From positions 1-64,000 of the IMG/VR virus record IMGVR_UViG_3300027917_000032: a DNA stretch of 64,000 nucleotides; one strand, given 5' to 3'. Positions 3,645-32,082 of the stretch are shown in pieces. The stretch is from a virus. Every line of letters begins with the position of its first letter. Position 1 is the stretch's first letter. A program made the translations under genes and the position numbers. Under the pieces are notes generated by a model. The model saw nothing but the letters and a program-made list of their open reading frames with translations. It did no database searches and was not told the origin of the DNA.

Positions 3645-3850
3645 TTGGTTTCTCCAGTGGTAAAAAAGTCAACGTCTGTCATGTAGAAAAAGTCGCCAGC
3701 GGGCCAGAAGCGCCCGGTGTCAGCGGATATGATGAACAACTCCATTTCATCCTCGACGTGCTGCACAAGATCAGGATACTTGGCAGTGTCGTCCGCACAT
3801 TCGGGATACCGGTCTACGTTATTCGTTATCTTTACGACACGATATTTCAT
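3614..3850 (-). CDS. Hypothetical protein, 78 aa
   Basis: A small acidic protein with a C-terminal cysteine cluster (CDCLCGCC) that could bind metal. Its start overlaps the stop of the gene at 3847. Weak AAGG Shine-Dalgarno. Function unknown. Confidence 0.55.
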   Translation of the reverse strand: MKYRVVKITNNVDRYPECADDTAKYPDLVQHVEDEMELFIISADTGRFWPAGDFFYMTDVDFFTTGETKCDCLCGCCR

Positions 3851-4449
3851 AGGATTGCCTTCTGTAAAGAGCAGCGGTCACAGTCAGCCCCATCCATAAG
3901 CTCAACCTTTTCCCACAACCCGCAAGACTCGCACTGACCCAGCCCCATATCCAGCATGTCTTGTTCTACGTCATCCAGGTCATAGTCAGTCCAGACTAGC
4001 CCCAGATCATCCAGCGCGTGCTCAATAGGTGTGCGTGTGTGATGGAGTGCTCGAATCAGGTTACAAAGTCTGGGATAGTCTAGTTTGGGACGAGGCAGGG
4101 CGAGGGCGGTTGTGACACCCTCAACATAGGTGATAACATCCTCAACGAATTGAGGCCCATGCCGAAACTGAGCACGCATCGCTCTGTCAACGATGAATGT
4201 GAGATAGTTACCTTTGTATTGACGTAGGATGTTTGGCCCGCCGTAGAAGTAAACTGGCCCCACCTTAAAGGTTGGTGCTTTAGGGTTGAAGTCTTGAACA
4301 AGCTCGGCAGGCGTTGTCCTACAATAGCCGCCCGCGCTTAACACGAGAAGTTCATCGGCAACCGCATCCCCAAAATGTCGCAGAATCATCACCGCCGACT
4401 CGATAGTGAGAAAGGTCAGTCGATTCCGCAGTTGTTCGTGAGTAAGCAT
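3847..4449 (-). CDS. GGP-motif family protein, 200 aa (paralogue family of six)
   Basis: The protein shares with five genes at 8396-10207 an N-terminal helix (ESAVMILRHFG) and a core motif (YFYGGP, then QYKGNYLTFIVD). A C-terminal extension holds CxxC and CxxC pairs, probably a zinc ribbon. The ATG at 4449 lies 6 bases past the -10 box of a promoter at 4455-4482, implying a leaderless message. The family is not one I recognise. It could be a host-takeover or nucleic-acid-binding protein, but that is only a guess. Confidence 0.7.
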   Translation of the reverse strand: MLTHEQLRNRLTFLTIESAVMILRHFGDAVADELLVLSAGGYCRTTPAELVQDFNPKAPTFKVGPVYFYGGPNILRQYKGNYLTFIVDRAMRAQFRHGPQFVEDVITYVEGVTTALALPRPKLDYPRLCNLIRALHHTRTPIEHALDDLGLVWTDYDLDDVEQDMLDMGLGQCESCGLWEKVELMDGADCDRCSLQKAIL

Positions 4450-4454
4450 ACCAA

Positions 4455-4482
4455 ACTCTACCATACGAAACGCCGTTGTCAA
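4455..4482 (-). promoter_or_regulatory. Sigma70-like promoter with extended -10 (TTGACA / TGG-TAGAGT)
   Basis: On the minus strand TTGACA (4482-4477) is followed after 16 bases by TAGAGT (4460-4455), preceded by TGG as an extended -10. The ATG of the next gene begins 6 bases after the -10 box. It lies inside the 3' end of the upstream membrane-protein gene. Confidence 0.75.
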
Positions 4483-4625
4483 GCGAGTGCGTGCAAAAAG
4501 CGCAGGGAAACCTCCACGCACAGCATAGCCCCGAGAAAGGCGAGCAGTTTGCCCAACCCGCCGCTACAGGCGACGGCAGCGCCAATCGCCGCCAGCGTAA
4601 CCAGTTTAACCGTTAGATTCTTCAT
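4479..4625 (-). CDS. Small membrane protein, 48 aa
   Basis: The ATG at 4625 has GGAG 5 bases upstream. Nearly the whole protein is hydrophobic, with two segments (LVTLAAIGAAVAC and LLAFLGAMLCVEV). It follows another tiny membrane protein gene (4606-4701). Function unknown. Confidence 0.55.
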   Translation of the reverse strand: MKNLTVKLVTLAAIGAAVACSGGLGKLLAFLGAMLCVEVSLRFLHALA

Positions 4626-4701
4626 GGCCGCTCCAGAACAGTTTATCCGCAAGATCAACGGCCTCGACCAAGACCCCGAGAAACACTGCAAGTGTCAACA
4701 T
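4606..4701 (-). CDS. Micro-protein, 31 aa, membrane-like
   Basis: Its ATG shares bases with the TGA of the deaminase gene in a TGATG junction, typical of translational coupling. The first half is hydrophobic (MLTLAVFLGVLVEAV) and the second half charged. It also overlaps the next gene. The size makes this tentative, but the coupling and membrane pattern support it. Confidence 0.45.
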   Translation of the reverse strand: MLTLAVFLGVLVEAVDLADKLFWSGHEESNG

Positions 4702-5168
4702 CAGTACATTTCCCCTTTCCATGCCCGCATGAGCCGCTCCACCTTGCCCGCAAGTAACGGGTGTCCCTGCCGCATACGCAAGCGACGGGCGGCGTTAGGC
4801 TTCTCCAATTCGTGATAAATAAACGAATCGTCAAAACCGATCAAGTCAGCAGTATGCCGATCAACGGCGTAGTATACCCGGCGCAAGCGAGCCCAGTAGG
4901 CAGCGGCTAGGCACATGGGGCACGGCTCACACGTCGCATAAAGCTCACAGTCGGTGAGCCGGTGCGTGCCAAGAACGTCGCACGCCAGCCGGATAGCCAT
5001 TATCTCGGCGTGGGCAGTCGGATCGTTCAGGGTTGTGACACCGTTGGCGGCGACCGCAATCACCGCCTTGCCCCGCATCACGGCCGCGCCGAAGGGACCA
5101 CCGGCGCTAGCTTCCATCGCCGCTATAGCCGCATCCCAGCCGTCTTTTAGTCCTACCTGTTGTGTCAT
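4701..5168 (-). CDS. Guanine deaminase-like nucleobase deaminase (CDA superfamily)
   Basis: Family knowledge: guanine deaminase of the cytidine-deaminase fold converts guanine to xanthine. Zinc-site motifs are present: HAE at 53-55 and PCPMC at 82-86. The stretches TTLNDPTAHAEI and IGFDDSFIYHE match my memory of bacterial GuaD better than tRNA adenosine deaminases or dCMP deaminases. The length of 155 aa is normal. The start at 5168 has GGAGG upstream and overlaps the stop of the preceding small gene. The adjacent region encodes other nucleotide enzymes. Confidence 0.82.
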   Translation of the reverse strand: MTQQVGLKDGWDAAIAAMEASAGGPFGAAVMRGKAVIAVAANGVTTLNDPTAHAEIMAIRLACDVLGTHRLTDCELYATCEPCPMCLAAAYWARLRRVYYAVDRHTADLIGFDDSFIYHELEKPNAARRLRMRQGHPLLAGKVERLMRAWKGEMY

Positions 5169-5296
5169 CGTTCTCCTCCATAGAATTTTTGTTCGATCCA
5201 GACGGCGTAGGGTGTCTGTGTTCCATCCGTGAAATACACCTGTCCACAACAAATCGACTCCACCTTCTTTTTATCTTCCTGCTTCTCAGGTGTCAT
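5165..5296 (-). CDS. Hypothetical protein, 43 aa
   Basis: This gene fills the gap between the metallopeptidase-like gene and the deaminase. Its ATG overlaps the upstream TGA and its own TGA overlaps the deaminase ATG, so all three are chained. It is Lys-rich with a Cys pair (ICCGQVYF). Function unknown. Confidence 0.55.
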   Translation of the reverse strand: MTPEKQEDKKKVESICCGQVYFTDGTQTPYAVWIEQKFYGGER

Positions 5297-5754
5297 GGTA
5301 CGTCTCGCATTAGTCGTTCAAGTTCAGTCAGTCCTTCACCCGTGCGACAGCCGGGCACCCACCCGTCAATATGCCAGTGGCCCAAGCACGGCGGGAAGTC
5401 GTGCATCGCTTCGTGAACCAGTAACATGAGGGCCAGGTCATCGTCGTGGTCCCACTCCTCCCGGTTCAGCGTAACGCCAGGTGTCCAAGGAATGTTAATC
5501 CCAGCAGCGAAGTGCAGGTCAAGGATACGGACAGTGAAGCGGTCCACCAAGCGATACTTTCGCGCGGTATAGTGCAACACTTCTTTGAGCTTGCGATTCT
5601 CACAAGCCGCCTCCAACCGCTCGATACGTGCCGAAATGCGGTCGAGCTTCGCTTGATCCGCCGTAGTGCCCGCTGAGGGGATCATAGCGAGCCACGGCAG
5701 AGTCAGACAGCCGAGCACTACGCCACCGGCCACACGCCACCAGTTGATTTTCAT
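5293..5754 (-). CDS. Membrane-anchored HExxH metallopeptidase-like protein
   Basis: The N terminus (residues 5-25) is a hydrophobic anchor or signal. Residues 114-118 read HEAMH, a zincin HExxH motif, followed by FPPCLGHWHIDG with further possible ligands. By analogy with zincins this could be a membrane-tethered metalloprotease facing the periplasm, perhaps a peptidoglycan or protein hydrolase. GGAG lies 6 bases before the ATG. The family is not identified and activity is inferred from the motif only. Confidence 0.65.
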   Translation of the reverse strand: MKINWWRVAGGVVLGCLTLPWLAMIPSAGTTADQAKLDRISARIERLEAACENRKLKEVLHYTARKYRLVDRFTVRILDLHFAAGINIPWTPGVTLNREEWDHDDDLALMLLVHEAMHDFPPCLGHWHIDGWVPGCRTGEGLTELERLMRDVP

Positions 5755-5918
5755 GGAAGTCTCCGGTAGTAACGGGCTCGTTCATCCGGCGACATGCCAG
5801 CCGTCACGATAACGTCGTACAGGACTGAGGCAAGGATGAGCGGCGACAAGGCCAGCATCATAAGCACGATGATCGGGTAGCCGATAAACCACTTGCAGAG
5901 TTTGTTAAACAATGGCAT
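5751..5918 (-). CDS. Small membrane protein, 55 aa
   Basis: It has one strong transmembrane segment (IIVLMMLALSPLILASVLYDV) then a short tail (MSPDERARYY). The tail resembles that of the next membrane protein upstream (MTPEELAAW), so the two look like diverged duplicates. The stop overlaps the ATG of the metallopeptidase-like gene. Confidence 0.6.
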   Translation of the reverse strand: MPLFNKLCKWFIGYPIIVLMMLALSPLILASVLYDVIVTAGMSPDERARYYRRLP

Positions 5919-6114
5919 AAGCGTGTCCTGAATGTTTGTTGCTGAGGAACTTGCGATTCTCTTTCCACGCTGCCAATTCTTCCGGCGTCATGTTCCGCGT
6001 ATCAAGATAGTCAAACGCTAGTTGTATTACGATGAACGGCGAGAAGAAAAGAATTAACGGCACGGTAAAGGGAGCCACAACGATAAGGGCCAGGATTGTT
6101 TTGAGTAACTTCAC
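5905..6114 (-). CDS. Small membrane protein, 69 aa
   Basis: The GTG at 6114 has GGAGG 7 bases upstream and overlaps the end of the zinc-ribbon gene. One long hydrophobic stretch spans residues 5-35, followed by a hydrophilic tail with MTPEELAAWKENR. It is a probable duplicate of the protein at 5751-5918. Function unknown. Confidence 0.6.
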   Translation of the reverse strand: MKLLKTILALIVVAPFTVPLILFFSPFIVIQLAFDYLDTRNMTPEELAAWKENRKFLSNKHSGHAYAIV

Positions 6115-6539
6115 CAACAAACCTCCACAATGTATTTTCCAGGGTCCAGGAAACGGTCCACGCACAAGGCGTTAAGCACGTCGTAGTTGGAGAAATCCGC
6201 CGATTCGCCCGCCCGAAACAACTCCATTTGCTCCCGGTCGTAGCGAGTCATCGCAGCGGGGTTGACCGTAAACGAGTGTAAGGTATCGTTTCCACACTCT
6301 TCCGTCGCTACGAACGAGTAGTCGGGGCGGCTATAGAAGCGGTGAACAATATCTTCAATCACACCGTAGTCGATGCGGATAGTCGTCTGGATTCTACGCC
6401 GGTAGGAAAACTCAATAGGCTTAGGCACGCCGCCGCCACAAGCGCTACACCAGAAGAATGATGCTCCCATACCTGCGCCGGTAATCCGGTCCACGGCTCC
6501 ACAATGCGGGCACACGTTCACTTTCTTCAAGTCAGCCAT
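6111..6539 (-). CDS. Zinc-ribbon protein, 142 aa
   Basis: The N terminus has CPHCG and CSACG pairs about 20 residues apart, a classic zinc ribbon. The remainder is a mixed alpha/beta domain without recognised motifs. AAGG precedes the ATG. Zinc ribbons of this type often bind nucleic acid or transcription machinery, but no partner is evident. Confidence 0.65.
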   Translation of the reverse strand: MADLKKVNVCPHCGAVDRITGAGMGASFFWCSACGGGVPKPIEFSYRRRIQTTIRIDYGVIEDIVHRFYSRPDYSFVATEECGNDTLHSFTVNPAAMTRYDREQMELFRAGESADFSNYDVLNALCVDRFLDPGKYIVEVCW

Positions 6540-6552
6540 CGCATACCCTTTC

Positions 6553-6747
6553 TCAACCTATGCAGTCCAGAAGGCTAAAGGCGTCATCGGTCATAACTAA
6601 TTCAACCGCCTTGGGATGGCCCGTGACCCACGCCAAAGCGAAAATACGCTGGTTCAGCATTGTTTGGGCAGCGCTGCCGGGTGTTGCCCGGTCCCGCTGT
6701 GCCGCTAATGCAAACAAGGTCGTTTTGATTTGTTCTTCTGTTTTCAT
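6553..6747 (-). CDS. Hypothetical protein, 64 aa, starting 2 nt after tRNA-Gln
   Basis: The ATG follows the discriminator base of tRNA-Gln by only two bases (CT), and no Shine-Dalgarno is available. The protein is helical (KTEEQIKTTLFALAAQRDR). The same CT-ATGAAA junction occurs after tRNA-Asn at 30331. If the tRNA 3' end is cut by RNase Z the remaining message would be leaderless. Confidence 0.6.
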   Translation of the reverse strand: MKTEEQIKTTLFALAAQRDRATPGSAAQTMLNQRIFALAWVTGHPKAVELVMTDDAFSLLDCIG

Positions 6748-6749
6748 AG

Positions 6750-6821
6750 CAGTGGAGGGAGGAATCGAACCTACCGCCTTTTGATCCAAAGTCAAACGTG
6801 CTACCATTACACCACCCCACT
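6750..6821 (-). tRNA. tRNA-Gln (anticodon TTG)
   Basis: It folds as a full cloverleaf. The acceptor AGTGGGG pairs with CTCCACT (one G-U), the anticodon stem TTTGA/TCAAA encloses CTTTGGA giving anticodon TTG, and the T arm contains GGTTCGATTCC. No CCA is encoded. The 5' end overlaps the stop of the upstream gene by two bases. Confidence 0.9.
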
Positions 6822-7047
6822 AAGTGCGCATCACTATCGACGCCGCTTCTGCCAGCCCGGCGTCACGGCCACGCCTATACCCCTCCGCAAACATTTTGGC
6901 TTTGCGGTAAGTATAAACCGTCTTGAGCGTGCCGCCACCGCACCATTCAAAACTGAAAACCATTGTGCCCTTTGTACGGCGACCTAGCACACGCAAGCCC
7001 GTCATATCTTCCAGAGCGGCGATTCGCTTCTGTAGAACCTTGTCCAT
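6820..7047 (-). CDS. Hypothetical protein, 75 aa, between tRNA genes
   Basis: The ATG at 7047 has GGAGGAG upstream. The protein is basic and helical (MDKVLQKRIAALE, then many Arg and Lys). Its 5' end and leader are duplicated 342 bp upstream as a truncated copy. Its location inside a tRNA cluster may reflect recombination. Function unknown. Confidence 0.6.
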   Translation of the reverse strand: MDKVLQKRIAALEDMTGLRVLGRRTKGTMVFSFEWCGGGTLKTVYTYRKAKMFAEGYRRGRDAGLAEAASIVMRT

Positions 7048-7178
7048 ACTCTCCTCCATCCGTATCCTCCCAGTACCAAGTACCATCTTCTATACCCCAC
7101 TGTGAGTGGCCCCGCCCGGTAATGCTCCGGGTTCTCCGGGTTGAAAGCCCGGCGATCTAACTTCTAATCTACGGGGCC
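7009..7178 (-). repeat. 170-bp direct repeat, copy A (gene start plus tRNA-Glu-like)
   Basis: Bases 7009-7108 are nearly identical to 7351-7450 at a constant offset of 342. The homology continues through a tRNA-Glu-like gene (7107-7178 versus 7449-7520), which has diverged mainly by paired changes. It carries the start of the gene at 6820-7047. Confidence 0.85.
7107..7178 (-). tRNA. tRNA-Glu-like (anticodon TTC) with atypical D and T loops
   Basis: The acceptor GGCCCCG/CGGGGCC is perfect. The anticodon stem CCGGG/CCCGG encloses CTTTCAA (anticodon TTC). The T stem CCCGG/CCGGG encloses AGCATTA instead of the usual TTCRANT, and the D loop lacks GG. Discriminator A. The cloverleaf is convincing, but the elbow contacts would be non-standard. 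See the second copy at 7449-7520 for covariation. Confidence 0.7.
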
Positions 7179-7181
7179 GGT

Positions 7182-7266
7182 CGCCGGGGCAGGACTTGAA
7201 CCTGCATCGGGAGCCGCGAACTCCCACCCCTTACATGAGGCGCGTCTGCCACTTCCGCCACCCGGC
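7182..7266 (-). tRNA. Class II tRNA (long variable arm), anticodon not assignable
   Basis: The D arm (GCGGAAGTGGCAGACGC) and T arm (GCAGG-TTCAAGT-CCTGC) are canonical and leucine-like. A 5-bp variable arm (GGGAG/CTCCC) marks class II. The anticodon arm is 3 bases short: CCTC and GGGG enclose ATGTAA, readable as GTA (Tyr) or TAA (Leu). It may be a specialised or degenerate tRNA. Confidence 0.65.
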
Positions 7267-7389
7267 TAGGTGCCCTTCCGCCCGCCCGGTCGTCCTGTAG
7301 ACAGTTGAGCGGGCCGGAAGGCTATGTTGTTGCACCTGGCAGGATGGGCTTTCCAGAGCGGCGATTCGCTTCTGTAGAACCTTGTCCAT
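7231..7389 (-). pseudogene. Truncated duplicate of the gene at 6820-7047
   Basis: It shares the ATG, leader and first codons (MDKVLQKRIAALE) with the gene at 6820-7047, then diverges completely and runs into the class II tRNA. It has only a partial Shine-Dalgarno change (GGAGGAT). It looks like the remnant left when the tRNA-Glu segment was duplicated. Confidence 0.6.
7268..7337 (-). ncRNA. Long hairpin between tRNA genes, possible structured RNA
   Basis: AGGTGC (7268-7273) pairs with GCACCT (7332-7337), and CTTCCGCCCGC pairs with GCGGGCCGGAAG (one bulge). This gives a long stem-loop of about 70 bases between the class II tRNA and the second tRNA-Glu-like gene. It does not fold as a cloverleaf. 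It could be a processing signal or a small RNA. Confidence 0.4.
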
Positions 7390-7520
7390 ACTATCCTCCA
7401 CTCGTATCCTCCCAGTACCAAGTACCATCTTCTATACCCCACTGTGAGTGACCCAGCCGGGTTACGCTCCCGGTTCTCCAGGTTGAAAGCCTGGTGACAT
7501 AACTAGTAGTCCACTGGGCC
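7351..7520 (-). repeat. 170-bp direct repeat, copy B
   Basis: Second copy of the segment at 7009-7178, offset 342 bp. The gene-start part differs by only a few bases. The tRNA part differs at several positions that keep pairing. Confidence 0.85.
7449..7520 (-). tRNA. tRNA-Glu-like (anticodon TTC), second copy
   Basis: The acceptor GGCCCAG/CTGGGTC, anticodon stem CCAGG/CCTGG with the same CTTTCAA loop, and T stem CCGGG/CCCGG with loop AGCGTAA all pair. Compared with the copy at 7107-7178, C-G becomes A-T in the acceptor, G-C becomes A-T in the anticodon stem, and a T-stem pair flips. These paired changes argue for a selected RNA structure. Confidence 0.7.
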
Positions 7521-7631
7521 GCGAAGGCGTGCGGGAACTACCTCAAGCACCATGCGCTTCCCGCAGCGGTTAGGTTTACTGCTCCCGGTAGCCAGGGTCT
7601 TACTCCCTGGGACGCCTTTAACACCATCCAC
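7503..7631 (-). CDS. Possible small basic protein, 42 aa
   Basis: A GTG-started frame encodes a basic peptide with normal composition (VDGVKGVPGSKTLATG). It overlaps the 5' end of the second tRNA-Glu-like gene by 18 bp and lacks a good Shine-Dalgarno, so it may not be translated. Bases 7521-7617 hold nothing else I can support. Confidence 0.25.
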   Translation of the reverse strand: MDGVKGVPGSKTLATGSSKPNRCGKRMVLEVVPARLRGPVDY

Positions 7632-7827
7632 GAACTTTTGTATGCTTAAGCGCTTGCTCAACCTCAGCTTCGCGCGTCGTCGTTCCCGTAAATCCCACCG
7701 CCATCGCATACGCGATGAGGCGCGCGTCCCATTTGTCCAGGGCATAGGCGGCGATGGATGTTTCTACGTTGGTGCCAGGAGTGGTCACAGTGACTAACCA
7801 GCACTTAACTCGTTTTTGTATTCGCAT
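7618..7827 (-). CDS. Hypothetical protein, 69 aa
   Basis: A small mixed alpha/beta protein (KCWLVTVTTPGTNVETSIAAYALDKWDARLIAYAM). The start overlaps the end of the upstream gene; the Shine-Dalgarno is weak and the start could lie a few codons later. Function unknown. Confidence 0.5.
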   Translation of the reverse strand: MRIQKRVKCWLVTVTTPGTNVETSIAAYALDKWDARLIAYAMAVGFTGTTTREAEVEQALKHTKVRGWC

Positions 7828-8161
7828 CGTTTTGATTCAATATGTTGTTCAACTCCACTAAAACGTCGAACGGTAGCCGCTTTAGCTCGTGCATCTGAAA
7901 CCGCCGCGAAAGCCGACTACACAGACGCGCTTTCCGCGCTTCCTGATACAAGTCTTGCGTCTCGCCTTCGCGTGGCAACCTTACTGAGATAAAGTGCCAA
8001 CGGTCACGCCGTCCCGACTGGCGGCCATCCCGCTTGCGGAACCGCTCACCCATGTCGGTAATTATGAGTGTGGGCGTAAGACGCTCGACATAGGTGACAC
8101 GACGACCCATGCTATCCAAACGGATCAACTCGTCGCCCTCTTTTATATTCTCAAGACTCAT
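7805..8161 (-). CDS. Hypothetical protein, 118 aa
   Basis: GGGAG lies about 6 bases before the ATG. The N-terminal 50 residues look like a small beta-barrel (GDELIRLDSMGRRVTYVERLTPTLII); the C-terminal part is basic and helical. It could be a nucleic-acid-binding protein, but no specific family is recognised. It lies immediately downstream of tRNA-like sequences. Confidence 0.55.
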   Translation of the reverse strand: MSLENIKEGDELIRLDSMGRRVTYVERLTPTLIITDMGERFRKRDGRQSGRRDRWHFISVRLPREGETQDLYQEARKARLCSRLSRRFQMHELKRLPFDVLVELNNILNQNDANTKTS

Positions 8162-8204
8162 AGTGTTCTCCCATAAGCCACGCCAATAGCGAAGGCTTTT
8201 GCTT

Positions 8205-8254
8205 TAGGGTAGGTTAGCTACCTACCTGCGTGCTTTCCAATTACACTACCGCCC
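8205..8254 (-). pseudogene. tRNA 5'-half-like fragment
   Basis: Reading leftward, a tRNA-like start (GGGCGGT) is followed by a good D arm (GTGT-AATTGGAAA-GCAC) and a stem-loop (GGTAGG-TAGCTAA-CCTACC, anticodon-like GCT). No matching T arm or acceptor 3' strand follows. Bases 8162-8204 and 8255-8299 contain nothing else I can name. Probably a decayed tRNA. Confidence 0.35.
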
Positions 8255-8299
8255 AAAAAGGGGCAGCGTGGCCGGTTGGCAGAGTGTGAAATATCTGTT

Positions 8300-8384
8300 G
8301 AGTCGGGGAGGGAATTGAACCCTCAGAGCCAGCGGCGGCTAGGTTACAGCCTAGCTTGGACTCAAACCATTGTCCAGCCCGATC
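8300..8384 (-). tRNA. tRNA-Tyr (anticodon GTA), unusual anticodon arm
   Basis: The D stem GGAC/GTCC with GG in its loop, the T arm GAGGG-TTCAATT-CCCTC and an extended variable region (GCC/GGC stem) are canonical for bacterial tRNA-Tyr. The anticodon arm has a 6-bp stem GCTAGG/CCTAGC closing a 6-base loop CTGTAA, anticodon GTA. The acceptor has one A-C mismatch at pair 2-71. Confidence 0.7.
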
Positions 8385-8395
8385 CTCTGGATACC

Positions 8396-8806
8396 TCACA
8401 CACTTCCGGCCTTTGCTGCCAGTGATCTAGGGATGTTTCTTTTCAGTTGCTCACCGATATATCCTGGATTCATTGGGTCAAACTCCAGTACCCACTTGAA
8501 GCCAATATCTTCCGTCGCCTGCGCCAGCAGGATGGCATCAATCACAAACTGCACCCAGTTGCCCCAGTAGTATTGTCGCCAGCCGGGCGGGCCGCCGAAA
8601 AAGCGAATCTTCTCCGAGCGGGCAAGCCTATGCCCCGACTTGTCATCCTTTAATACTTCGCGTGGGCAGGTATAATACCAGTCACCCGCATGAGGCCAAG
8701 CTACCGCTACAGAGTGGCAGTCAACGCCGTAAATCTTGAGGAGCCAGCACGCCTCATGCACGGTGATCCACTTCAACTTTCGTTTGAGTACGTCGATAGC
8801 GGTCAT
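8396..8806 (-). CDS. GGP-motif family protein, 136 aa
   Basis: It carries the family motif as IRFFGGP, then QYYWGNWVQFVIDAILL, and the N-terminal helix VHEACWLLKIYG. It is the most downstream of five neighbouring paralogues, each overlapping the next. The C terminus is longer than in its neighbours. The ATG overlaps the upstream stop. Function unknown. Confidence 0.68.
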   Translation of the reverse strand: MTAIDVLKRKLKWITVHEACWLLKIYGVDCHSVAVAWPHAGDWYYTCPREVLKDDKSGHRLARSEKIRFFGGPPGWRQYYWGNWVQFVIDAILLAQATEDIGFKWVLEFDPMNPGYIGEQLKRNIPRSLAAKAGSV

Positions 8807-9144
8807 ATCCCCAACAACTCCTCAAATTCCAGCTTCCGAGTGTAGTGCCAAAACAAGGCTTCGTCGCACAGCATCGTAAGCATGGTCCCCTGTTGCGGCG
8901 AACACTGGCGGGGTGGGCCACCTGTAAAACCCACAACGCCAAAACTGCCGCACGGCATGTCCAGCAGAAAATCGTCCAACTCTGCCAACGCGCTGCTCAC
9001 AGTCCAACATTCACCGCTCCAAGTAAACGATTTATACGGCGACTGAAACTTCTGTGCTATTGTGATTAGGGCGGCCCGTACCGAAAGCACGCAATACTTA
9101 TATTTCATGTCGGCAGGTTTCGGTTTTGCTTGTTTCACTAACAT
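8803..9144 (-). CDS. GGP-motif family protein, 113 aa
   Basis: The motif here is VGFTGGP, then QQGTMLTMLCDEALFWH. The N terminus is Lys/Pro-rich. The ATG at 9144 overlaps the end of the upstream paralogue; a later start at MKYKYC is possible because the Shine-Dalgarno is weak. It is the most divergent family member. Function unknown. Confidence 0.6.
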   Translation of the reverse strand: MLVKQAKPKPADMKYKYCVLSVRAALITIAQKFQSPYKSFTWSGECWTVSSALAELDDFLLDMPCGSFGVVGFTGGPPRQCSPQQGTMLTMLCDEALFWHYTRKLEFEELLGI

Positions 9145-9512
9145 GCGCCACGGTCCCACAGAATGTGCTCAATTGCCCGTATTGGACTCATGCCGCTCGT
9201 CAAGGTCCGACGCAGCATACAGTCAACTAAATAGGTCAGTAAGGTGCCGGTATACAAGCCGTTGCCGTAAGGGCCGCCAATAAACTCGATGGGCGATACG
9301 TCAATCGCGTTCATCATACGGCGACTGGTAATACCAAGCAGCCCGGCTGGCGTCCAAGGATACAGGCAGCCAGAAGCACCGACCCACCAAAACAGCGAGT
9401 CGCCGTAACCCAAAATCTTTAGCATGTGGCAAGCTGCGCCAGCCGTGTGCCCCTCCACGGCTTCTTGGAAACCAACCATGCACCCGTAGGTAAATATACG
9501 GTTATCACGCAC
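9138..9512 (-). CDS. GGP-motif family protein, 124 aa
   Basis: The GTG at 9512 is preceded by GGAGG with 6-base spacing and overlaps the end of the upstream paralogue. The motif is IEFIGGP, then LYTGTLLTYLVDCMLRR; the N-terminal helix is AACHMLKILGYG. Trp-rich centre. Function unknown. Confidence 0.68.
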   Translation of the reverse strand: MRDNRIFTYGCMVGFQEAVEGHTAGAACHMLKILGYGDSLFWWVGASGCLYPWTPAGLLGITSRRMMNAIDVSPIEFIGGPYGNGLYTGTLLTYLVDCMLRRTLTSGMSPIRAIEHILWDRGAC

Positions 9513-9828
9513 TGGCGGCCTCCAAGAACTTCTCAACCCGATCCCAGCATCCGTGTGTATGCTGATGGAAAAGCTCATCGACTAGCAACGCCAGCAGCGT
9601 GCCCCGATATTCTTTTCGCCCGCTGTTAAATGGACCGCCGCGAAATCTTAACGGAATCAACCGCGCGGGTATGTCGCCGTTCACTCGCTTCGCCAAATCA
9701 ATGATGTAGGTTGGAGCCCCGCAAAACTCAACTTGAACCGACGCAGCTTTGAACGTGTAGAGCAGATGGTTGAGAGCACGAGCCGCTGACCACTCGCGTA
9801 GCGCGTCGTAGGCTTTTTCAACATTCAT
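9505..9828 (-). CDS. GGP-motif family protein, 107 aa
   Basis: The motif reads LRFRGGP, then EYRGTLLALLVDELFHQ. The start at 9828 overlaps the stop of the upstream paralogue with GGGA just before it. It is shorter than its neighbours, close to the family core. Function unknown. Confidence 0.68.
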   Translation of the reverse strand: MNVEKAYDALREWSAARALNHLLYTFKAASVQVEFCGAPTYIIDLAKRVNGDIPARLIPLRFRGGPFNSGRKEYRGTLLALLVDELFHQHTHGCWDRVEKFLEAASA

Positions 9829-10207
9829 CAATCCCGATCCATTCTGCAACATGGTTAATGCCGTTTACGTCAATCTCGCAAAGAAGCCGGTCTAACAGCA
9901 GCGTGTAAAGTGTTCCCGTGTACCAGTGAAGTTTGTTTGGCGGCCCGCCCCAGAACCAAAACGTCATCGTTTCTTCGGCCATCCGGCCCTGAAGCTCAGG
10001 GTAGCGAAAGTCGTTTGCCAGGTTATCGGTAAACTGCTTGACACCGTTGACATAAATGATTTCGTTGCTGTAGCCAAAGGCTTCCATGATAGCCAGCGCG
10101 CCCTCAATGCTGATCCCCTTAATCGTGCGCAAGATAGCTTTCAGGGGGCGGGTTGGCTTTTTCCGCTGATTGATCTGATTGATAGTTGTCAGTGCTTGCA
10201 TGTCCAT
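9818..10207 (-). CDS. GGP-motif family protein, 129 aa, first of the cluster
   Basis: The motif reads FWFWGGP, then WYTGTLYTLLLDRLLCE, with the N-terminal helix EGALAIMEAFGYS. The ATG at 10207 lies 6 bases after the -10 box of the promoter at 10213-10241, the same geometry as at 4449, so translation is probably leaderless. A longer in-frame start at 10222 would overlap the promoter. Confidence 0.68.
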   Translation of the reverse strand: MDMQALTTINQINQRKKPTRPLKAILRTIKGISIEGALAIMEAFGYSNEIIYVNGVKQFTDNLANDFRYPELQGRMAEETMTFWFWGGPPNKLHWYTGTLYTLLLDRLLCEIDVNGINHVAEWIGIDEC

Positions 10208-10212
10208 ACTAA

Positions 10213-10241
10213 ACCCTACCATGTCATTTGCCGCTTGTCAA
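10213..10241 (-). promoter_or_regulatory. Sigma70-like promoter with extended -10 (TTGACA / TGG-TAGGGT)
   Basis: TTGACA (10241-10236) and TAGGGT (10218-10213) are 17 bases apart, with TGG before the -10. It lies in the 3' end of the upstream gene and drives the five-gene GGP cluster. Confidence 0.75.
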
Positions 10242-10616
10242 GTCGTCGGCCAGCAAATTTTTCAAGTCAACGATCATGGTGACGCGGAGCGCGTTCTGCT
10301 CAGGGGTGATGGGCCGAAAGTCAGCATCGGGATCGCCTTTGGGCCGGAACTTCTCGACTCGCAACCACTTGTCGGCCCACCGTTCAATCACGGGATTCCC
10401 TACCATCGGCACAGCCGGTACAGTGTCTCTAATCTCACACTCCACAACAAACCTCGCCTTGTCTCGATTAAGCCACTGTTTATATGGCTCCTGATCGGTC
10501 TTGGCGCGCAGACGATCCTCCAGAACACGGCAAAAACGCCGCACAATCTTGCGGCGTATGGGCTCTGTAACTAAGTCCGACAGGTTGCGAAAGAACCCCG
10601 CTAAGTCTCTCAACAT
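10224..10616 (-). CDS. Hypothetical protein, 130 aa
   Basis: The N-terminal half is a basic amphipathic helix region (RRKIVRRFCRVLEDRLRAK); the C-terminal half is mixed. The start overlaps the stop of the upstream gene. The promoter for the GGP cluster lies inside its last codons. Function unknown. Confidence 0.6.
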   Translation of the reverse strand: MLRDLAGFFRNLSDLVTEPIRRKIVRRFCRVLEDRLRAKTDQEPYKQWLNRDKARFVVECEIRDTVPAVPMVGNPVIERWADKWLRVEKFRPKGDPDADFRPITPEQNALRVTMIVDLKNLLADDLTSGK

Positions 10617-11824: not shown

Positions 11825-11852
11825 ACCATATCACAAAATCGGGCCGTGTCAA
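11825..11852 (-). promoter_or_regulatory. Sigma70 promoter (TTGACA-16-TATGGT, extended -10)
   Basis: TTGACA (11852-11847), a 16-base spacer and TATGGT (11830-11825) preceded by TGTGA. The sequence after it (TTAGGTAGGCGG) resembles that after the promoter at 30624-30651. It lies at the end of the deoxyribosyltransferase-fold gene and starts a new unit. Confidence 0.8.
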
Positions 11853-12448
11853 GCCTCATTCTCGAATTTTCTGCACATGCTCCAATCAAAGAAAAACCAC
11901 CGATTGAAGTGCTTGATGAGTGAATCCTTGTCGATATGCCGCAAATAGGCTTCAATCTCCTCCCAGGTGGAGAAGATCATTTCATGCGGCACCGTCGCCA
12001 AGAGCCAGTTGGGCGTAGCCTCTTTCCCTTGCTCGACATGAATGAGACACGGCTTCTTTTGCCGATTCGCCAGAAACAACTCTTCGTATGTTCCGCAGGC
12101 GTGTACGTCAATGTCAAGATTGATAATCAGAAAGTCGGCAATATCGACCATCCGAAGATCGACTGCGCGGATTACCTTGAGGGGCGGAGCGCACTCGTCA
12201 TACATTCCGAGCTTCTTCATCGCATTGATTTCATTCCGTAACGCCGCATCCTCGATTCCGACTTCAATCGGCTTGTGCGTCGGGTCCATCCAGATGATGC
12301 CCAAGTCGGCCAAATCCTTTTGCAGTTTGATTCTCCAAGCCTCGCCGCCGTCCTGCACACGATCCATCGCCCCGCAGAGGTAGCCCCGCGTATAGCGGAG
12401 TCGGTTGGTCGTGCTGCTCCTGATTAGTTCGTCGCTGCGTGCTGGCAT
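11849..12448 (-). CDS. Nucleoside 2-deoxyribosyltransferase-fold protein, 199 aa
   Basis: A YLCGAMDR motif near the N terminus and a central ADFLIINLDIDVHACGTYEEL segment match the nucleoside 2-deoxyribosyltransferase / DUF4406 fold, which moves or cleaves deoxyribosyl bonds of nucleosides or nucleotides. The acidic residue in GTYEE is the expected catalytic position. The start at 12448 has GGGAG upstream. It is the neighbour of a second member and of deoC, forming a nucleotide-salvage set. Substrate unknown. Confidence 0.72.
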   Translation of the reverse strand: MPARSDELIRSSTTNRLRYTRGYLCGAMDRVQDGGEAWRIKLQKDLADLGIIWMDPTHKPIEVGIEDAALRNEINAMKKLGMYDECAPPLKVIRAVDLRMVDIADFLIINLDIDVHACGTYEELFLANRQKKPCLIHVEQGKEATPNWLLATVPHEMIFSTWEEIEAYLRHIDKDSLIKHFNRWFFFDWSMCRKFENEA

Positions 12449-12450
12449 AG

Positions 12451-12909
12451 TCATTCTCCCTTCAAGTTGAGGATTGCTTCCGCCACCGTCAGAGCGGTTT
12501 CTACACTCTCGACACGAAACCCGGTAGCTTCAGAAATCATACCGTGGTTGTGGATGTTATCATCTTCGCTAATGACGATGATGGGGATGCGTTTCAAGTC
12601 GGCCCACGCAATCTCCATGACCGTGCCGATGCTCACCTTAGTCGCACCGAGAAAGTTCACGACCAACAGATCACAGCGGGTACAGTCAAAGCGGTCGCGG
12701 GTCATAATCCCACGGCTACAACTCAGCACCGTGTCGTAGTCGTTGCTGATGCACTCCTCAGCGGCTAGGTAATCCTTACCCCGCATCGGGTCCAAGCACT
12801 CGACGTTTTTACCGTAAAGCGCCTTCGCAAAGGCTTTCCGCCAATCGGTGCAGCCGCCATACGAACAGCCCGTGATAGGGCCAGCCAAGTAGATTGTGTA
12901 ATGGTTCAT
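12451..12909 (-). CDS. Nucleoside 2-deoxyribosyltransferase-like protein, 152 aa
   Basis: The N terminus IYLAGPITGCSYGGCTDWR and the central CDLLVVNFLGATKVSIGTVMEIAWA match the NDT / DUF4406 family, with the S-x-GT-x-x-E acidic catalytic region. In the known family these enzymes exchange or hydrolyse N-glycosidic bonds. It is directly downstream of deoC, which would consume deoxyribose 5-phosphate. Length typical. Confidence 0.8.
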   Translation of the reverse strand: MNHYTIYLAGPITGCSYGGCTDWRKAFAKALYGKNVECLDPMRGKDYLAAEECISNDYDTVLSCSRGIMTRDRFDCTRCDLLVVNFLGATKVSIGTVMEIAWADLKRIPIIVISEDDNIHNHGMISEATGFRVESVETALTVAEAILNLKGE

Positions 12910-13595
12910 TTTTCACTCCAATCAGGCATTAGTGTTTCAATGGACGAGGAGCCCAGCCGCGTGCAGCCCAGAGACAGGAAGCGCTCGGCGTCGGCGTAGC
13001 GCTTAATTCCACCGCTGGCCTTAACCTGCGTATATGACCCCTCCACTACGCTCAGCATTGTCATCACGTTGGGCACGGTCGCAATCGAACGTGTGCCAGT
13101 GCCAAACCCGGTCGAAGTCTTGACCCATGCGATATGATCGTGCATCGCCAGCGCGGACGCCGTGTAGATTTCATTTTCCTTGAGGTAACACGTCTCAAGG
13201 ATCATCTTAAACTTCACCCCTGTCTCGCGCTGCATCCGAGCCATCGCCTTAATCTCAGTTACGACGGGTTCCCAGTCACCATCCTTGATTGCGCCGATAT
13301 TTGTCACCCAATCAACTTCAGTAGCCCCATCCTTGATAACCGCAGCGGCGGCCAGCGCCTTAACCACGGGCGAGTCATTTCCGTGCGGGAAGCTAACCAC
13401 CGTCCCAACCTCAATCGGGAAGCCGTCGAGAATCTTCGCAGCCAGAGGAACATAGTGCGGCTTCACACAGACGGAAGCGCAGCCGAAGCGAATGGCCCGC
13501 TGGCAGCAGACGGATGTATCAACCGACGTTGCATCCGGCTTGAGACAAGCCAGGTCTACAGCGGCGGCAACTTGTTCGCGGGTGTAATTAAACAT
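12906..13595 (-). CDS. deoC: Deoxyribose-phosphate aldolase
   Basis: It cleaves 2-deoxyribose 5-phosphate to glyceraldehyde 3-phosphate and acetaldehyde, the last step of deoxynucleoside breakdown. Active-site residues are visible: Asp95 in TEVDWVTNIG, the Schiff-base Lys159 in VKTSTGFG, and Lys192 in VKASGGI. The length of 229 aa fits the short bacterial form. The two deoxyribosyltransferase-fold genes follow with overlapping codons. Confidence 0.93.
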   Translation of the reverse strand: MFNYTREQVAAAVDLACLKPDATSVDTSVCCQRAIRFGCASVCVKPHYVPLAAKILDGFPIEVGTVVSFPHGNDSPVVKALAAAAVIKDGATEVDWVTNIGAIKDGDWEPVVTEIKAMARMQRETGVKFKMILETCYLKENEIYTASALAMHDHIAWVKTSTGFGTGTRSIATVPNVMTMLSVVEGSYTQVKASGGIKRYADAERFLSLGCTRLGSSSIETLMPDWSEK

Positions 13596-13827: not shown

Positions 13828-14451
13828 CTACTCCTCCAGAAACTTGCGAAGTCGATCCACCGCGACGGCGTAGGTGCCATCGGAGCAGCCGAACAGCACG
13901 CCAACCAACTTCCCTCTAAGTTGAACCGGCCCGCCTGAGTCGCCGCTACGCACTAGGGCATCTACACTGAACAAGTCGGGCGGGCTAGTTTTGTCGGGCT
14001 GGTAGAACTTCACCACCGGCCCCTCACTCTGAGCGTAGAATCCTGGCCCGTACCCGCCCACCGTCACCCTCGCACCGTAGCTTGGCGTCTCTCCCAGAGG
14101 CATCGGTGGGATGAGTACAGGGTCGATTCGTAGCAGTGCCAAGTCCCAACGCTTGTCGGCCTTGACGATTGTAGCGTCGTAGAGCGTCCAGTCGGGGAAC
14201 ATCACCTGCACCTTACCCGTCCCGTCTCGAATGACGTGATGATTTGTAACAATCAAATTTGGCGCAATTAGCACTCCTGTTCCATTTGACGTACCTCCCC
14301 GCTCCTCGGCAAACACCCGCACGACGTTAGGCGGCGGGGTCGTTACCTTGACAGATTCAGGTGCGCCGATAGCTAGAGCAACAATAAATCCGCCGATAAT
14401 ACCGATAACGATGATGTATAGGCCGATAGCTTCAAAGGTTGCCTTGGTCAT
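13828..14451 (-). CDS. Membrane-anchored trypsin-like serine protease (DegP/S1 fold)
   Basis: The N-terminal residues 7-29 form a transmembrane anchor. A chymotrypsin-fold protease follows with the full catalytic triad: His72 in TNHHV, Asp103 in WDLALL, Ser172 in SGDSGGP. There is no PDZ domain. The expected orientation is periplasmic. Such a gene is unusual in phages. It could process virion or host envelope proteins, or block superinfection. The start overlaps the upstream gene. Confidence 0.9.
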   Translation of the reverse strand: MTKATFEAIGLYIIVIGIIGGFIVALAIGAPESVKVTTPPPNVVRVFAEERGGTSNGTGVLIAPNLIVTNHHVIRDGTGKVQVMFPDWTLYDATIVKADKRWDLALLRIDPVLIPPMPLGETPSYGARVTVGGYGPGFYAQSEGPVVKFYQPDKTSPPDLFSVDALVRSGDSGGPVQLRGKLVGVLFGCSDGTYAVAVDRLRKFLEE

Positions 14452-30623: not shown

Positions 30624-30651
30624 ATCATATCACACTAATCCTGCTTGTCAA
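30624..30651 (-). promoter_or_regulatory. Consensus sigma70 promoter (TTGACA-16-TATGAT)
   Basis: TTGACA (30651-30646), spacer 16, TATGAT (30629-30624) with TGTGA before it: the best promoter in the window. It drives the tRNA-led unit from 30485 downward. The ~130-base leader (30486-30620) contains inverted sequences but no gene that I can support. Confidence 0.85.
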
Positions 30652-31198
30652 GCAATTTCCGCCGCATCCGGTAGATTATTTGGTCATACCCGCCCACGGG
30701 CAACTCTTTGCAGTAGGCGAGAAGTAGATTAAGCTCGTCCAGTCCGTAGTATTCCCTCCACGGGCGTTTACCGGGTGTCGCGCCTACTGTGGGTAGCTCT
30801 ATAAAGGGGATGCCCATACTTCCGAAGAAGGTGTCCAGATCATGCTGCAAAGCCTCATAATGCAGATGAGTACGAGTGTAATGGTTATGCAGAAAGAGCA
30901 GGTTGTAGGGATCGCGGCAGTTCTGTAACAACTGCTTCAGATACCCGGCAAGGTCGAGTCCTGGGAGGCTCAGCAACCACTTTGTCACGAGAATGTCGGC
31001 AGGATTGCGAACAACGCTAAAGGGATAACATTTGCTCAGTCCATGCACGCCACGCCTTTTAAGGTCTTTAAGCGTAGAGTGATGCGAACCAACCTCGTGA
31101 CTGTCCGTATGTTGAAGCAGCGCATTACGCAAGGCACGGGACGCGGTATGCGGCTCAGCCAGAAACAGGTAACGATAACGACGATTGATTACGGCCAT
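30635..31198 (-). CDS. Sulfotransferase-like protein, 187 aa
   Basis: The opening YLFLAEPHTASRALRNALL matches the 5'-phosphosulfate-binding loop (P-x-x-(G/A)S-x-x), and YPFSVVRNPADILVTKWL matches the 3'-phosphate-binding RNP motif of PAPS sulfotransferases. Shorter than cellular enzymes. GAGG precedes the ATG. It is a paralogue of the next gene and lies near glycosyl- and methyltransferase genes, so a carbohydrate acceptor is plausible. Confidence 0.72.
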   Translation of the reverse strand: MAVINRRYRYLFLAEPHTASRALRNALLQHTDSHEVGSHHSTLKDLKRRGVHGLSKCYPFSVVRNPADILVTKWLLSLPGLDLAGYLKQLLQNCRDPYNLLFLHNHYTRTHLHYEALQHDLDTFFGSMGIPFIELPTVGATPGKRPWREYYGLDELNLLLAYCKELPVGGYDQIIYRMRRKLLDKQD

Positions 31199-31205
31199 TG
31201 TTTCC

Positions 31206-31742
31206 TCAGAACTTGTAACGACAGTGATGAAGTTCGTCCAAGAAGTATTCCTTCACCCACATACGCTCAGGACGCTTGTAGAATATCTGATAAGGTGCGC
31301 CGTCACGAGCCGAGTCGGTTACGCGAGGTAGGTCAAGCGGAGCCATGCCCGCTTTAACCAACGCCTGATCGAAGTCAGCTTGCAACTGCTCGTATCGCAT
31401 CCATGTGTTGACATGATGCGCACCAATCCACCAGAGCCGGTGGTCTTGAACGAAGTGTGGACTATTCTCAACAAAACGTGGAAGAAAGTCAATCAGCGGC
31501 GTCATCGCCCTGGCTTTCCGCTCCAGCTTGAACCACCACGAGATGAGGGCGTCGTAATGGTTCCGCACCGTTGAGCACACGGTCCAGTCGGGTCCAATCT
31601 CATAGTCAGAGTCATCGGGCGTCGTATGGTGCGAGCCGATCAGCACCGCGCCACGATGCTCTTTCAACGCTCGGGCAACCGCTTTGCTCCCCGTGCGTGG
31701 CGCAGCGATGTAACAGAACTTCCATTCAGGAATCACATACAT
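31206..31742 (-). CDS. Sulfotransferase-like protein, 178 aa, paralogue
   Basis: IPEWKFCYIAAPRTGSKAVA is a clear phosphosulfate-binding loop; TVCSTVRNHYDALISWWF is the second PAPS site. GSHHTTPDDSD contains a His pair shared with the paralogue (GSHHSTLKDL). The start at 31742 has GGAGG upstream. It may transfer sulfate to surface sugar or protein. Confidence 0.75.
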   Translation of the reverse strand: MYVIPEWKFCYIAAPRTGSKAVARALKEHRGAVLIGSHHTTPDDSDYEIGPDWTVCSTVRNHYDALISWWFKLERKARAMTPLIDFLPRFVENSPHFVQDHRLWWIGAHHVNTWMRYEQLQADFDQALVKAGMAPLDLPRVTDSARDGAPYQIFYKRPERMWVKEYFLDELHHCRYKF

Positions 31743-32082
31743 CGTAAAGCTCCTCCACAACTTTCTGCATCGCGGCTCTAGCCTTTACCCACAAGCCGCG
31801 CAGCTTTCGATCCTTGATGCGTGCCGCTGGAACCAGTGAGTAAATGCTAAATCCGATGCCTTCATAAGCTACAATCTCCCGAACGTCGCCCACGTCCAGC
31901 GGACCTTTGGGCGGGTTGGGCATTTCAATCGCAGGCATACCTCTCGGCATATCCGCCACCCACCCGCCAGGCTCAGGGACCAGCGGGTGAGCGCGTTTGT
32001 CGGTGAAGTCAAAGCCACAGTCGCACTGCTTCTTGCGGGTGCCGTGCTTGGCTTGACACTCGGGGCAGATTTTCTTAGGCAT
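31726..32082 (-). CDS. Zinc-ribbon protein, 118 aa
   Basis: The N terminus KKICPECQAKHGTRKKQCDC is a zinc ribbon, followed by a Pro-rich linker and a helical C-terminal domain. Its end overlaps the sulfotransferase-like gene. Function unknown. Confidence 0.62.
   Translation of the reverse strand: MPKKICPECQAKHGTRKKQCDCGFDFTDKRAHPLVPEPGGWVADMPRGMPAIEMPNPPKGPLDVGDVREIVAYEGIGFSIYSLVPAARIKDRKLRGLWVKARAAMQKVVEELYDVCDS

Follow-up and report, generated by a model that had tools for sequence, protein, structure and literature searches.

A family of divergent F-x-GGP paralogues kept as an ordered array in related uncultured phages

Blocks of small accessory genes behind a host-type promoter are a known arrangement in phages. 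In T4, in SPO1, and at anti-CRISPR loci, early takeover or anti-defence blocks encode small, fast-evolving, nonstructural proteins and use host-type promoters. The array of genes that we describe here resembles those blocks in the kind of proteins encoded and in promoter type. However, the known blocks contain mostly unrelated proteins, whereas this array consists of one paralogue family, here called the GGP family, whose order is shared across phages. We found nothing in sequence or fold that ties takeover or anti-defence blocks to the GGP family.

The window that we analyzed is a stretch of 64,000 nucleotides, positions 1 to 64,000 of IMGVR_UViG_3300027917_000032, an 87,928-base IMG/VR virus record. 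An earlier note on this DNA had attributed it to a phage and had described six paralogous genes, five of them consecutive and overlapping by a few bases. We identified genes for a tape measure protein, a helicase, a primase, a polymerase, and a large terminase, in keeping with a phage source, and all six open reading frames are present on the minus strand at the coordinates given in the note. With the best start codons, the five consecutive genes overlap by 4, 7, 8, and 11 nt, and they are probably translationally coupled. The features of the locus are as follows.

3847..4449, minus strand: W1, the separate copy, a GGP family gene with a C-terminal extension carrying CxxC...CxxC
4455..4482, minus strand: promoter-like element of the separate copy, TTGACA-N16-TAGAGT
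8299..8385, minus strand: tRNA gene directly after the array, tRNA-Tyr(GTA) as read from the sequence
8396..8806, minus strand: W2, array position 5, GGP family, ATGA overlap of 4 nt
8803..9144, minus strand: W3, array position 4, GGP family, 7-nt overlap
9138..9512, minus strand: W4, array position 3, GGP family, GTG start, 8-nt overlap, modelled
9505..9828, minus strand: W5, array position 2, GGP family, start inferred from an 11-nt overlap
9818..10207, minus strand: W6, array position 1, GGP family protein of 129 aa, core modelled at pLDDT 95
10213..10241, minus strand: sigma70-type promoter-like element, TTGACA-N17-TAGGGT, with TGn before the -10
10224..10616, minus strand: head gene, 130 aa, directly before array position 1

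The tRNA was an uncertain call by ARAGORN, with GTA in the anticodon stem-loop. A gene adjoining the array has a weak ProQ-C-like domain match, and the head gene product had no match in Pfam or PHROG searches.

We asked whether the six proteins are homologous by building an HMM from five members at a time. The sixth was recovered in every case with an E value between 3.2e-6 and 4.1e-12 among the 408 open reading frames of the record, always ranking straight after the five training members; thus, the family is not a chance resemblance, and its members are true homologues. The core proposed from the window takes the form F-x-G-G-P...G-x7-D in all six proteins, with the G 8 to 10 residues after F-x-GGP and the D exactly 8 after that G, and a six-frame scan of the window found this coherent pattern nowhere else among its open frames. 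The motif also occupies equivalent alignment columns in all members. Of the Y-x-G element in the original description, the glycine is kept, but the tyrosine is common rather than invariant and is replaced by Q in the protein of 8803-9144.

The search of viral sequences that the earlier note had proposed extended the family by 30 members, found by local HMM searches in related uncultured phages, to 36 distinct proteins. We define the family by F-x-G-G-P, a G after 7 to 9 more residues, and a D 8 beyond that G, within a core of 100 to 140 aa. Among the first 14 members, the invariant set was F, G, G, P, G, and D; in the 36-row alignment, one G, the P, and the D are present in 36/36 and the F and the other two glycines in 35/36 each. 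Outside the motif, members share about 28% identity.

These relatives were reached by encoded-motif scans of 2.9 million viral contigs, by a DNA-polymerase search, and by profile searches. Searching viral contigs with W4 and W1 singly yielded no relatives; the degenerate DNA motif scans succeeded. Four loci that matched the DNA motif (L032, L034, L038, and L075) were rejected as family members. Five phages carry an array, the window's own and four others, and one fragment carries one copy.

G001, IMGVR_UViG_3300001533_000890: array phage
G010, IMGVR_UViG_3300037225_000328: array phage
G011, IMGVR_UViG_3300037245_001295: array phage
G012, IMGVR_UViG_3300032156_000005: array phage
G016, IMGVR_UViG_3300037088_000364: fragment, one copy identical to that of G010

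The array phages belong to a clade of uncultured tailed phages and are syntenic relatives with polymerases 58 to 72% identical to that of the window. No array was found in profile searches of 30 terminase-relative records and eight polymerase relatives, many of them fragments. A large relative of 129 kb (G325) has several of the neighbouring genes and no head gene or array in the region read. Scanning one genome per bacterial species for the motif yielded no member, the only hit being a false positive, and a consensus tblastn search of named phages and plasmids found no family member. Relatives of the window's terminase are frequent among metagenome contigs, and its identity to those of named phages is never above about 26%. 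A contig of 9 kb that belongs to a different IMG data set (L105, IMGVR_UViG_2654587967_000003) carries a 100% identical terminase; its source might be an isolate or single cell, which could give a clue to the host. In G010, we also noted a tmRNA gene with the tag AKPQLALAA (L080, 14476-14773).

The absence of a named family for this signature, which the earlier note had suspected, held in every library searched. With significance set at the gathering score or an E value below 0.001, no profile in Pfam (run on 14 members) or in NCBIfam, PHROGs, or PADLOC (run on up to 36) matched the family. An hmmsearch against PDB sequences gave no match, and no matching array was found in the literature. Only 1 of 36 members, W4, resembled phrog_29719 and phrog_2049 over the GGP hairpin and helix, in the latter at the same relative place (profile positions 58 to 91 of 105), and neither match was significant (E values of 0.007 and 0.07). 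phrog_2049 is present in none of the genomes searched. As judged by sequence, with relatives in none of the searched libraries, the protein family is new at the family level.

Next, we examined predicted structures. An AlphaFold2 model of W6 from the 36-sequence alignment (pLDDT, 95.3; pTM, 0.87) runs helix, helix, beta-hairpin, short helix, GGP beta-hairpin, long helix, helix. A model of W4 from 14 sequences (pLDDT, 76), now superseded, has the same order of core elements. Because the two alignments overlap, the models are not independent; they agree in the core, and the members are predicted to share one fold. Foldseek found nothing below an E value of 0.001 in the PDB (best listed TM, about 0.27) or among BFVD viral structures (best listed query TM, about 0.33), so the predicted fold is provisionally new with respect to these two collections. 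The conserved positions are structural in type: the hairpin glycines, the proline, aromatics, a helix N-cap (T/S/N/D), and one invariant Asp in the helix after the GGP hairpin. The 36-sequence alignment contains no conserved His, Cys, Lys, or Glu, and no catalytic set is apparent. W1 differs from its orthologues in G001, G011, and G010, which lack its Cys extension; the extension may be zinc-ribbon-like.

Small proteins built of helices and a hairpin could bind nucleic acids and regulate transcription, translation, or RNA, each copy acting at its own target site. Consistent with this, several members have a basic pI (above 9), a gene beside the window array has the weak ProQ-C-like match, and tRNA-Tyr follows three arrays (those of the window, G001, and G011). 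However, other members are acidic (pI 4.6 to 5), no HTH, zinc, or known RNA-binding profile matched, and Foldseek returned no DNA- or RNA-binding fold; we consider such a role distinctly unlikely. The net charge of the members, which ranges from -8 to +9 with no consistent negative charge, led us to reject an identity as Ocr-like DNA mimics acting against restriction or CRISPR.

Each phage has 5 to 7 tandem copies in its array and usually one separate copy (0 to 2), roughly 2 to 14 kb away. The conserved layout opens with the head gene, followed by positions 1 and 2, the remaining copies, in many cases a tRNA-Tyr, and finally the separate copy. In G010, the array is interrupted by an open reading frame that by eye has HNH-endonuclease-like Cys/His features (L070, about 5085-5661). 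The head gene occupies the same place in 5/5 array phages and was found in 0/26 of the other records searched, namely 25 array-less relatives and the fragment G016. This arrangement bears on the main alternative, which we judge rather unlikely, namely that the copies assemble into one hetero-oligomer, such as a ring or filament formed on DNA or RNA or on a host machine. Its subunits would meet through the GGP hairpin and helix, and the head gene product would act as partner or loader. The fixed order and retention of the first two positions in every array phage, the translational overlaps, the restriction of the head gene to genomes with the array among the records searched, and the strong conservation of a single motif in proteins otherwise about 28% identical would all suit such an assembly. 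However, the number of copies varies inside and outside the array, the separate copy lies at a distance behind a promoter of its own, and the motif conservation may reflect folding alone. We regard as unlikely the fuller proposal that a new fold diversified, in one uncultured clade, into an ordered and coexpressed hetero-oligomeric machine of 5 to 8 paralogues with the head gene product as partner.

The earlier note had read the family as an expansion with strong divergence. Orthologues are only 24 to 53% identical and are less conserved than replication and structural genes, so rapid divergence stands; a recent burst in the window's phage does not, given order-conserved orthologues and the result of an AU test. 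A maximum likelihood tree has one group with the position-1 proteins from all five phages and another with all of the position-2 proteins. W3 groups with position 4 of G011 and position 6 of G001, W2 groups with position 5 of G011, and W1 groups with its separate counterparts in G011 and G001; many deeper forks are weak. Labelling the tree by position (1, 2, separate, or other) requires 4 changes, and labelling it by phage requires 24. The AU test rejected the six window copies as one clade (p-AU, 0.0013), and reciprocal best matches place the orthologues of the first two positions and of the separate copy in the same order across phages. Therefore, the duplications largely predate the divergence of the array phages, and the array is old. 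Recent duplication is seen in one relative only, G001, where positions 3 to 5 look like local duplicates. Those copies, together with degenerate extras that follow the separate copy in G011, and perhaps in G001 too, are what one would expect of selfish or neutral tandem duplicates without strong function. That explanation is highly improbable, however, since orthologous positions stay intact despite divergence to 24 to 53% identity, the invariant motif is kept, and the promoter is conserved.

Tandem duplication seems common elsewhere in the window's phage. Three tandem paralogues of 234 to 249 aa at 83705-85871 of the whole record (L028; structural arm, outside the 64-kb window) all match a single G011 protein and form another paralogue array; two tandem genes at 30635-31760 match one G011 gene, and the tandem pairs at 1371-1848 and 5751-6165 are alike by eye. 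At 7040-7460, a tRNA-Glu and the start of the gene at 6820-7086 are duplicated almost exactly. The two copies lie at about 7040-7178 and 7345-7520, and the gene is truncated in the second; this looks like a recent tandem event.

The GGP genes lie at the promoter-distal end of the replication and nucleotide-metabolism arm, away from structural genes. Nucleotide-salvage genes at 11849-13595 and 4701-5168 encode a DeoC-type aldolase, a nucleoside deoxyribosyltransferase-like protein (which the neighbour at 12451-12909 resembles), and a cytidine-deaminase-like protein. A trypsin-like serine protease is encoded at 13828-14451 (Pfam E value, 5e-23), and the product of 6111-6539, near the array, has a weak likeness to the restriction alleviation protein Lar (Pfam E value, 0.003; below the cutoff). 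That the GGP proteins are virion or assembly-chaperone proteins in several versions is very unlikely: tandem paralogues do occur in the structural arm as well (83705-85871 of the record), but the GGP genes sit beside nucleotide-metabolism and tRNA genes, far from the terminase, tape measure, and tail genes, and have their own host-type promoter.

That promoter recurs across the array phages. The window, G001, G010, and G011 have TTGAC-N13-15-TGnTAnnnT immediately ahead of position 1, and the fifth array phage, G012, has TTGACA-N16-TATAGT without TGn. Such elements are rare, with 7 in the 88-kb record preceding 4 of its 408 open reading frames; GGP genes account for two of these four. At position 1 in the window, 5 nt separate the -10 from the ATG, and the spacing is the same for the separate copy. 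These short distances imply leaderless messages, and the position-1 promoter is probably leaderless. Leaderless expression with a -10 next to the open reading frame has been described in Deinococcus-Thermus (PMC12340547). The likeness lies in a TAnnnT a few base pairs before the ATG of position 1 (window and G010), of position 5 in G001, and of the separate copy, and the difference is that the GGP genes usually also have a -35 TTGACA. We treat this likeness as a lead only.

Our best explanation, held tentatively, is that the array encodes an ordered set of early, non-enzymatic proteins that bind host factors for takeover or anti-defence. The proteins would be coproduced from their own unit driven by host RNA polymerase, probably early in infection, a timing that the promoter type suggests. 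A non-enzymatic role is proposed because the conserved residues are F, G, G, P, G, and D plus hydrophobics and an N-cap, without a conserved His, Cys, Lys, or Glu. The F-x-GGP hairpin and following helix would serve as a shared scaffold, while the loops and the divergent N-terminal half could direct each position to a partner of its own, most likely a host protein. Each position would then be specialized and therefore kept. The separate promoter, the genome location, the lack of catalytic residues, and the retention of divergent copies fit host-factor binders acting early. Counting against them, gene overlaps and linked promoters are commonplace among phages, and no charge bias points to DNA mimicry; anti-defence genes, moreover, usually spread between phages, whereas the GGP family was found in one phage clade only.

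Taken together, these results describe an ordered array that has been kept across phages even though homologous array proteins are about 30% identical. They raise the question of why each phage carries 5 to 8 versions of one small protein with order and promoter held constant, and the family supplies a compact group of proteins on which structure determination, pull-downs, and expression screens could be focused.
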